Below, one piece after another: positions 7,376-39,222 of a DNA stretch of 64,000 bases (its first letter is position 1; each line of letters begins with the position of its first letter). Under the pieces are notes generated by a model that was not told where the DNA came from, searched no databases, and worked only from the letters and a program-made list of their open reading frames with translations. The translations under genes were made by a program, and so were the position numbers. Source of the DNA: Natronorubrum sediminis (lineage in GTDB: Archaea; Halobacteriota; Halobacteria; Halobacteriales; Natrialbaceae). The stretch is taken from the NCBI RefSeq assembly GCF_900108095.1, contig NZ_FNWL01000001.1:558001-622000 (forward strand). Reading direction: 5' to 3'.

Positions 7376-7447
7376 GTCGACACAGAACACGTTCCTCGCT
7401 CTTAATTCACCTGATAGGATCGGGGTCGACCACGAACCCTCCGTCTC

Positions 7448-7508
7448 TCACTCGAGTTCGGCGCGCAACTGCTGATTCACGTCGCCTGGGTCCGCACTCC
7501 CTCCCGTC
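7448..7508 (-). repeat. Second copy of the 3'-terminal 61 bp of gatB
   Basis: Identical over 61 bp to 7638-7698, which encodes the last 19 residues of GatB and its TGA. The offset is exactly 190 bp in the same orientation. On the minus strand the copy is in frame with a GTG at 7604-7606, giving a 52-residue open frame (7448-7606) that ends in the GatB tail GDVNQQLRAELE. Whether that frame is translated is unknown. It may simply be a duplication scar. Confidence 0.9.
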
Positions 7509-7637
7509 AGTTTTGCCACCTTTTTCTCGTCGGGATGCTCGCGAGACTCGCACCCACTCCGAGAAAAATCTGGACCAAAAGCCGAACGCTCGTGACTTAC
7601 GGACACTGTCCGTTCGCCTCTTCGCGTTCGGTACCGT

Positions 7638-7698
7638 TCACTCGAGTTCGGCGCGCAACTGCTGATTCACGTCGCCTGGGTCCGCACTCCCTCCCGTC
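7638..7698 (-). repeat. 3' end of gatB, parent copy of the 61-bp direct repeat
   Basis: This is the coding copy of the direct repeat at 7448-7508. It includes the gatB stop codon and the codons for the terminal tail. Outside the 61 bp, the flanks differ apart from a short TTTTGC similarity. Confidence 0.9.
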
Positions 7699-9131
7699 TT
7701 TTGCATGACCTGTCCAACGAGGAAGTTGATCGCGCCGTCGTCGCCCGATTCGTAGTCCTCGACCGCCTCCGGATTCTCGTCGATGGCCTCAACAACGGCC
7801 GATTGGACCTCGTCGCCGCTCGTCTTGCCGAGTCCCGCTTCGTCGACGATTTCGTCGGGTGTGGCCCCCTCGTCGAGCATCGACCGAAGCACCGTCTCGT
7901 GGGCGTTCTTCGACGTGATCTCGTCCTCGGCGACGAGTTCCACGAGTCGCGTAACGTCCTCGAGTCGCCCCTCGAGATCGGTGATCTCCATATCGCGGTA
8001 GTTGAGTTCGCCGAGTAAGTTGTCCGCGACCCAGGTGGCTGCGAGGTCGGGGTCGAACTCGCTCGCGACGTCCTCGTAGAAGTCCGCGACCTGCTTGGTC
8101 GACGTGAGCTTCGAGGCGGCTTCCTCGTTCAGGTCGTACTCCGCCTGAAAGCGCTCGCGACGGGCCGTCGGAAGCTCCGGAATGTCGATCTCTTCTTTCC
8201 AGTGTGAAACCCGAAGCGGCGGCAGGTCGGCCTCCTCGAAGTAACGGTAGTCTTTCTCCTCTTCTTTCGAGCGCATCGAGACCGTGATACCGCGGGACTC
8301 GTCCCAGTGGCGCGTCTCCTGTTCGACCGCACGGCCGCGCTGGATCGCGTTCTTCTGGCGTGTCTCCTCGTAGGCCAGGGCCTTCTCGGCACCTTTGTGA
8401 CTCGAGATGTTCTTGACCTCGGTTCGGTTGGCCGACTCGAGGGCGTCCGTGCCGATCTCGCTCACGTCGTCGCTCTCGATGTCCTCCTCGGGGATGATCG
8501 AGAGGTTGGCGTCGATCCGCAGGCTGCCGTCTCGCTCGGCGTCGAAGACGCCCAGGTACTCGAGAACCTCCTCGAGTTCGGCGAGAAACGCTCGAACCTC
8601 GCCGGGGCTTCGGAAGTCGGGTGCCGTGACGATCTCCATGAGGGGCGTGCCCGCGCGGTTGTAGTTGACCAGCGTGTAGTCCGCGGAGTCGATTCCCCCA
8701 CCGCCGCCGACGTGCTGGAGGCTGCCCGGGTCTTCCTCGAGGTGTGCACGCTCGATGGTGACCGTGCGTCGGTCGCCCTCGACGGAGATCTCGAGGTCGC
8801 CGTCGGCACAGATCGGTTCGTCGTACTGGGTGATCTGGAAGTTCTTGGGCAGGTCGGGGTAGTAGTAGTTCTTCCGGTGAAAGCGAGTCTCCTCGGGGAT
8901 TTCGGCGTCGATCGCCTTGCCGATCTTGACCGCGGCTTCGACGGCGGCCTCGTTGAGCACGGGCAGGGCACCCGGCAGGCCGAGACAGACTGGACAGACG
9001 TTTTCGTTCGGCTCGTCCGTCTGTGCCGTCGAACAGCCACAGAAAATCTTCGTGTCGGTTTCCAACTGGACGTGAACCTCGAGGCCGATGACGGTGACGA
9101 GGTCGCCCTGCTGGACGGTCTGGGCAGTCAT
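7638..9131 (-). CDS. gatB: Asp-tRNA(Asn)/Glu-tRNA(Gln) amidotransferase subunit B
   Basis: A 497-residue GatB. The amidotransferase core starts with VIGLEVHVQL, has the zinc-site cysteines in CGCS and CPVCLGLPG, and carries the family stretches FHRKNYYYPDLPKNFQI and PLMEIVTAPD. The C-terminal helical and YqeY-like tail (from about residue 350) ends NFLVGQVMQKTGGSADP. It activates the misacylated tRNA carboxylate with ATP and transfers ammonia supplied by GatA, making Gln-tRNA or Asn-tRNA. gatA and gatC are not in the window. Its 3' end has been duplicated 190 bp downstream. Confidence 0.96.
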   Translation of the reverse strand: MTAQTVQQGDLVTVIGLEVHVQLETDTKIFCGCSTAQTDEPNENVCPVCLGLPGALPVLNEAAVEAAVKIGKAIDAEIPEETRFHRKNYYYPDLPKNFQITQYDEPICADGDLEISVEGDRRTVTIERAHLEEDPGSLQHVGGGGGIDSADYTLVNYNRAGTPLMEIVTAPDFRSPGEVRAFLAELEEVLEYLGVFDAERDGSLRIDANLSIIPEEDIESDDVSEIGTDALESANRTEVKNISSHKGAEKALAYEETRQKNAIQRGRAVEQETRHWDESRGITVSMRSKEEEKDYRYFEEADLPPLRVSHWKEEIDIPELPTARRERFQAEYDLNEEAASKLTSTKQVADFYEDVASEFDPDLAATWVADNLLGELNYRDMEITDLEGRLEDVTRLVELVAEDEITSKNAHETVLRSMLDEGATPDEIVDEAGLGKTSGDEVQSAVVEAIDENPEAVEDYESGDDGAINFLVGQVMQKTGGSADPGDVNQQLRAELE

Positions 9132-39083: not shown

Positions 39084-39222
39084 CAGACAGATTGTTGCGT
39101 GAGTGGTGGTGAACAGCGTGAACCACCCGAACGGGACACGGTGGGACGAACGCGTCGACCGCTTGGACGTTTCATGCGACGGCCGAATCGCTATGCCGTG
39201 TGGCGGTGAGGACACCGCCTGC

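Follow-up and report, generated by a model that had tools for sequence, protein, structure and literature searches.

A proposed hairpin cassette with a substitute gene end behind gatB of Natronorubrum sediminis and other core genes of Halobacteria

A hairpin cassette that appears to set a substitute gene end ahead of the gene's own end recurs in many salt-loving archaea. We describe it here at gatB of Natronorubrum sediminis, in a window of 64,000 nucleotides (G000:C1:558001-622000) of the 3.78 Mb genome G000, where the last 61 nucleotides of the gene occur on both sides of a conserved hairpin, H. The same architecture accompanies H at many core genes, relatives have empty alleles that lack the unit, and the downstream tails are mosaic. 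We conclude that gatB probably carries a horizontally acquired gene-end cassette, one that would spread by homologous recombination through its two tail copies.

Results

Anatomy of the gatB locus

The two copies of the tail form a 61-nt direct repeat of 100% identity (7448-7508 and 7638-7698) with starts 190 nt apart, and the chance of a perfect repeat of this length in 64 kb is negligible (about 1e-27 by simple arithmetic). A preliminary description of this DNA had reported the repeat, and both its positions and its assignment to the tail of minus-strand gatB are borne out. Read in the gatB sense, the upstream copy (7638-7698) is the present end of the gene and 7448-7508 is the downstream copy, the order being tail 1, TGA, hairpin A with its T-run, H, a 7-nt linker and tail 2; the repeat homology extends as far as the end of H, which lies between the copies, two points not in the preliminary description. 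The features are as follows.

7638-9131, minus strand: gatB (Asp/Glu-tRNA amidotransferase subunit B), host of the cassette; open reading frame with PF02934 and PF02637
7509-7698, minus strand: inserted 190-bp unit (tail copy 1, stop, hairpin A, H and linker), from the repeat geometry and its absence from empty alleles; its limits can slide within the repeat
7638-7698, minus strand: tail copy 1, the present gatB 3' end, which by sequence comparison came with the unit or has been converted since
7582-7631, minus strand: hairpin A, a GC hairpin (CCGAACGC...GCGTTCGG) followed by a T-run, from the sequence
7516-7581, minus strand: conserved hairpin H (GGTCCAGATTTTT...AAAAAGGTGG), which has tandem G.A mismatches and scores 54.6 bits (E = 2e-11) with covariance model R1
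7509-7515, minus strand: linker CAAAACT, the gene's CAAAA plus a 2-nt insertion; common to gatB of Natrinema hispanicum (L162)
7448-7508, minus strand: tail copy 2, the displaced and most likely original gatB 3' end, from the repeat, the flank match and the mosaic comparison
7391-7447, minus strand: original gatB 3' flank, reaching to the next gene and resembling the flank found at the empty allele L272
6395-7390, minus strand: next gene, an open reading frame

Hairpin A and its T-run are terminator-like and may serve gatB as a terminator; a hairpin resembling A is also present in gatB cassettes of other genera when A is compared with A. The linker after H often consists of three nucleotides of gene sequence plus one or two extra nucleotides, strictly so at nine of 28 junctions, where 1.06 would be expected and at most four were seen in 500 shuffles.

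The sister species G003 has the same repeat arrangement with two diverged tails, and misassembly, which the preliminary description had advised checking, is therefore not the cause; seven further genomes that carry the gatB unit likewise rule it out. A separate second GatB tail (E ≤ 0.001) is found in G000 and G003 only, among ten genomes of the genus.

Empty alleles and the probable original gene end

A search for the second tail in relatives, also proposed earlier, finds it at nine of the 52 gatB 3' ends compared (from 52 genomes), with scores of 64-126 as against at most 26 for the other 43. The nine genomes (G000, G003, G265, G269, G286, G289, G290, G295 and G299) spread over four genera (g1, g2, g9 and g18), and their cassettes have similar scars beside H (xAAAACTGAC-like) and mostly a common hairpin A. 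Between close relatives the distribution is patchy: gatB is filled in G295 and empty in G292, and the reverse holds for ileS. Two gatB copies each are present in G002 (L007, L014) and in G286, although these may be mixed assemblies (contamination 13% and 6%).

In relatives without the unit, gatB continues directly into the flank that is found here after the downstream copy. Compared with the empty allele of G004 (L272), from the same genus, the flank of the downstream copy in the window scores 119 and that of the upstream copy 22. The flank of the downstream tail matches an empty gatB allele in ten of 11 filled loci (eight of the nine genomes, G290 failing), whereas the flank of the upstream tail does so in two of 11, both against L335, which itself has a remnant of hairpin A. 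The clearest filled and empty pairs are L330/L331 for gatB and L351/L352 for ileS. The downstream copy at 7448-7508 is thus most likely the original, displaced 3' end of gatB, as judged from these flank matches, and not the new duplicate that the preliminary description took it for. Because the two tails of the window are identical, which of them is foreign is not readable there. The corresponding test at ileS does not discriminate, since 14 of 19 loci match with either flank and some of the 'empty' ileS loci keep hairpin remnants, and this counts against the cassette reading.

A conserved hairpin linked to duplicated gene tails

H is a real structure whose stem covaries. In an alignment of 25 sequences 95.6% of cells pair (79.0% when shuffled), 84 cells are changed on both sides (31.0 shuffled, sd 4.4, and no more than 19 in slid alignments), and covariation scores 0.407 as against 0.113 after shuffling. 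Nine pairs are changed on both sides, not above the shuffles (8.5), and 11 of the 21 pairs never vary, eight of these being fixed by the search pattern itself. The tandem G.A mismatches are invariant in the alignment, whose rows had been chosen for GAG. By eye, the three closing pairs change together between subfamilies (CCA/TGG, GGA/TCC, GTA/TAC and CGA/TCG), with two copies that misfit. Searches of Rfam 15 with eight loci, the window copy L001 included, gave no match at E up to 1.

The strict H pattern matches in 62 of the 243 genomes of the order and 31 of its 77 genera, and the reversed control pattern has none among the matches listed. At least 120 H stretches lie in named genomes; among 80 matches listed, 77 carry haloarchaeal or order-level names and three are bacterial. 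Exact or near-exact cores of H are few in G000, and at three other H sites of this genome (L032, L033, L037) the 3' end of the upstream gene is also copied beyond the hairpin. The repeat is thus not a peculiarity of gatB and belongs to a hairpin-linked family of such tail duplications. When the flanks of 125 H copies from 113 loci were compared, 58 exceeded the 99th percentile of 1234 mismatched-locus controls.

We kept 197 of 213 H elements for counts that need full flanks, dropping those without 330/200 nt of flank or with N; L153, L182 and L225 (bacterial) and L247 and L251 (no hairpin look) were excluded from the flank and tail analyses. A same-strand open frame ends within 250 nt upstream of 180 of the 197 copies, with a median distance of 61 nt between H and the stop. 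A repeat starts no more than 12 nt from the foot of H in 114 of the 197 (named loci added), and in 99 of these 114 its left copy spans or nearly reaches the stop codon of the upstream frame. H does not need a tail repeat, since the other 83 strict copies have none recognised under the 12-nt cut. Seen from the genes, the tail recurs on the far side of H at 110 of the 176 open-frame ends that have a strict H in the next 300 nt, compared with ten of 1318 ends without a strict H nearby. A diverged H is present in seven of these ten rows (five places: L181, L005, L037, L229 and L210); the remaining rows, L195, L206 and L154, are without one.

Because the pattern search imposes the ends of H, we searched as well with R1, a covariance model made from 25 gapless copies. 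It finds at least 17 copies in G000 and at least 20 in G003, these being lower bounds from the 150 candidates scored per genome. Eleven of the 17 in G000 are flanked by a copy of their own gene's tail (one weakly, score 38); the others are the second hairpin in an array and five copies that lack a tail repeat, three of the five representing a visibly different repeat family. Among 11 further copies in G003, four have the repeat, one has it weakly (score 30) and six have none.

A bidirectional terminator favoured between convergent genes was considered and is not supported: the next gene is convergent at ten of 25 gene ends with H and at 358 of 653 without. A cruder count of 156 of 197 is inflated, because opposite-strand open frames abound in GC-rich DNA.

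Host genes

H usually lies just behind a core gene, such as those for GatB, IleS, PurH, PheT and SufS. Automatic clustering of the tails gave 33 clusters with 43 distinct junction points, although the frame of a few tails may be misassigned. Of 19 distinct host proteins put through family searches, 18 could be named, and L064 gave no family. One set comprises IleS, Dph6, ornithine carbamoyltransferase, a malic-enzyme/phosphotransacetylase-like protein, PurH, an EtfA-like protein, the DNA polymerase II large subunit, acetyl-CoA acyltransferase and SufS, several of these matches being partial and under the curated cut-off. The other set comprises PheT, a dihydroxy-acid dehydratase-type protein, a metallo-beta-lactamase fold, a histidine-biosynthesis barrel, an amidase, a class-I glutamine amidotransferase, an ArgZ-like protein, a short-chain dehydrogenase and GatB. 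One gene often has the identical junction in different genera.

At the end of ileS in G003 (L148/L300) the gene-proximal tail contains an early TGA, so that the protein ends four residues before the end typical of the genus, and two hairpin units follow this TGA.

Coding history of the tails

Differences between tail 1 and tail 2 at 111 loci fall at codon positions 1, 2 and 3 in 45, 31 and 187 cases, and the changed codons comprise 179 synonymous and 62 other, although same-gene loci of related species are not independent observations and continuing exchange between the copies can add to the pattern. With differences mostly synonymous and at position 3, both copies have a coding history. The homology most often ends at the stop codon (34 of the 111 loci in that bin).

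This pattern could also be read as a sign that the downstream copy is functional, yielding a short peptide or, with H, a regulatory RNA. The copies do remain alike over long periods, with most of their differences at synonymous sites, and the 52-residue frame described earlier (7448-7606, minus strand, with a GTG start) is present and open in the window. We nonetheless regard function of the copy as very improbable. The GTG at 7604-7606 is GCG in G003, the open frame passes through a hairpin of freely varying length between copies, the frame of the tail relative to the end of H differs between families, and the downstream tail lacks a proper stop in several gatB cassettes (L329, L338, L343); exchange with gene ends explains both the synonymous divergence and the mosaicism. 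With no GTG start in G003 and no constant frame across the hairpin, the suggested peptide that would compete with GatB through a shared tail is not supported.

Mosaic downstream tails

The downstream copies of the nine gatB cassettes tend to resemble the cassette in the part near H and the native allele toward the stop. Where tail 1 and a native allele differ, the downstream tail agrees with tail 1 at 18 sites and with the native sequence at four in the 5' half, and with tail 1 at 12 and the native sequence at 26 in the 3' half; the sites are not independent, so that Fisher's p = 0.0004 is indicative only, and in this tally G290 is excluded and G000, with its identical copies, adds only to the tail-1 class. 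GAGTTG or GAGTTA occurs within the last four codons of tail 1 in four of the nine cassettes and in none of the 44 natives listed of 45, and the native consensus GCCGAACTCGAG ends five of nine downstream tails as against two of nine upstream tails.

A mosaic of this kind would be expected after a right-hand crossover within the downstream tail. The identity of the two window copies calls for later conversion, and gene conversion between them, which had been raised at the outset, is likely: the copies differ in G003, where the downstream one is mosaic, and are identical in the window.

Proposed origin and spread of the cassette

These observations suggest that a unit of tail, stop, hairpin A with T-run, H and linker was placed between the body of gatB and its native tail. 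The gene would now end with the unit's tail and terminator-like hairpins, leaving the original tail and flank as a fossil downstream. Spread between species could occur by ordinary homologous recombination, with one crossover within the body of the gene and another within the downstream tail; both homology arms are then coding sequence of the same gene, and none is needed in poorly conserved intergenic DNA. The tail copies may subsequently exchange sequence, which would have made them identical in G000. Against this, the crossovers are deduced from short tails, within-genome conversion could also yield the mosaics, and neither a transfer event nor an enzyme has been observed.

Alternatively, the fragile foot of the hairpin could have led slippage or repair to copy tail, A and H locally in tandem, with the second A-H then decaying and its tail remaining. 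There are exact arrays with periods of about 94-220 nt (L080, L083, L097, L119, L131, L349), some of which, such as L080 and L349, have a second A-H behind the second tail, and GGTG, the end of H, lies just upstream of the gene junction in 17 of 101 cases compared with 4.0 expected and none of 200 controls, in a count whose gene families are not independent. Most gatB cassettes, however, have the flank of the empty allele after the downstream tail and not a decayed A-H, the differences between copies are mostly synonymous, unlike the decay of an unused copy, and at ileS of G003 the A and H of the first unit differ from those of the second. We therefore think it unlikely that tandem duplication accounts for the pattern as a whole, although the arrays (e.g. 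L080, L131, L349) indicate that plain tandem duplication happens as well. It may also have founded the acquired cassette: since the arrays and the excess of GGTG upstream of junctions point there, our guess is that the cassette was founded by tandem duplication, or by one-sided repair, with the break or stall at the foot of H.

More tentatively, H and its host tails may constitute a hitherto undescribed kind of non-autonomous mobile cassette. It would travel between species with the coding end of a core gene on either side, swap the 3' end of that gene at each move and stack in arrays, with H perhaps promoting the process. It could do so through breakage, stalled synthesis or the binding of recombination proteins at its foot.

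Comparison with known elements

The conserved, structured hairpin in many genomes, the insertion-like empty alleles and the homology that reaches the foot of H would be compatible with H being a transposable element of MITE, REP or IS605 type whose insertion at gene ends produces a target duplication that is long and variable. This is improbable in view of a repeat length that varies widely and tracks the host gene, and of the same gene often having the same junction across genera. The Y1 transposase (PF01797) that marks IS200/IS605 elements or PATEs had no matches in G000, in a search whose control matched in five of 14 genomes, and H had no matches among the viral contigs of IMG/VR. The MITE mark of terminal inverted repeats with a fixed-length target duplication is also absent, H having a 3-bp closing stem and flanking repeats of varying length, and a 190-bp unit is too small for the integrase of an integrase-borne element.

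REP and REPIN sequences are like H in being small extragenic palindromes near gene ends with conserved terminal bases. REPs, which are marked by a terminal tetranucleotide and by association with a RAYT, are not known to duplicate host gene ends, and the terminal bases of H differ from the REP signature. In addition, H has about 1 to 20 model matches (lower bounds) per genome in the genus.

Haloquadratum prophages are reported in PMC3119063 to integrate at tRNA 3' ends with tRNA repeats of 22 and 43 nt. As described there, such elements are like the cassette in having the working gene end upstream and a partial copy of the end beyond the insert; the cassette differs in its lack of an integrase, its 190 bp, its use of many protein-coding genes each with its own repeat, and a common hairpin instead of a common attachment site. 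The MITEs, PATEs and SMRs of haloarchaea covered in the same paper are short, non-coding, palindromic and transposase-free, as are the cassette hairpins. SMRs in particular are given there as elements of about 80-110 bp with terminal inverted repeats and no target duplication, which target other mobile elements and whose mobilisation is called enigmatic, whereas the flanking repeat of the cassette is the host gene's own coding end.

The cassette resembles a terminator in its sequence, with a T-run and hairpin just past the stop codon. Haloarchaeal terminators are described in PMC7237163 as having T-runs and hairpins soon after the stop, in a position like the cassette's, with a T stretch and a conserved TC at intergenic sites; the passages on them do not present them as a conserved family tied to duplicated gene tails. 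A literature search, largely outside subscription papers, found no description of an H element. An RNA-guided scaffold with its guide, a retroelement-like template and variable repeat, an archaeal intron and an attC-like site were set aside, anatomy alone suggesting them and no test supporting them. The cassette is like integration at gene 3' ends, small haloarchaeal repeats and terminators, yet as a family it lacks the marks tested for each, having no integrase, no Y1 transposase in G000, no fixed target duplication and no Rfam match.

If the cassette reading is true, a small cassette has exchanged the 3' ends and downstream hairpins of dozens of core genes in Halobacteria, needing no coding capacity of its own and using only the sequence of the host gene as its address label. 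It would leave an easily spotted footprint of between-species recombination inside essential genes, and would provide both a structured element without known function and a testable route for exchanging gene ends and 3' UTRs. It would also be a warning that, of two copies of a gene tail, the one behind the gene can be the older.

Variants and related sequences

In L347 (gatB of G299), at about 800 nt past the stop, the cassette is broken up within H by some 700 bp of unrelated, AT-richer DNA, so that the second tail is 874 nt downstream. Four copies (L329, L343, L351 and L366) have an extra stem-loop within H, after GGTC and before AGATTTTT, that is similar in gatB and ileS cassettes. A separate family (TTTTTGGCATGAACGGGTTTTC...), represented by L402, L405 and L406 in G000 and L414 and L415 in G003, matches the H model; its copies are nearly identical over some 90 nt of left flank and lack any repeat of a host-gene tail. 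Within the window, positions 39088-39143 on the plus strand score weakly against the H model (18.6 bits, E = 0.022); the T- and A-runs there are degraded, and the site is possibly a decayed H.
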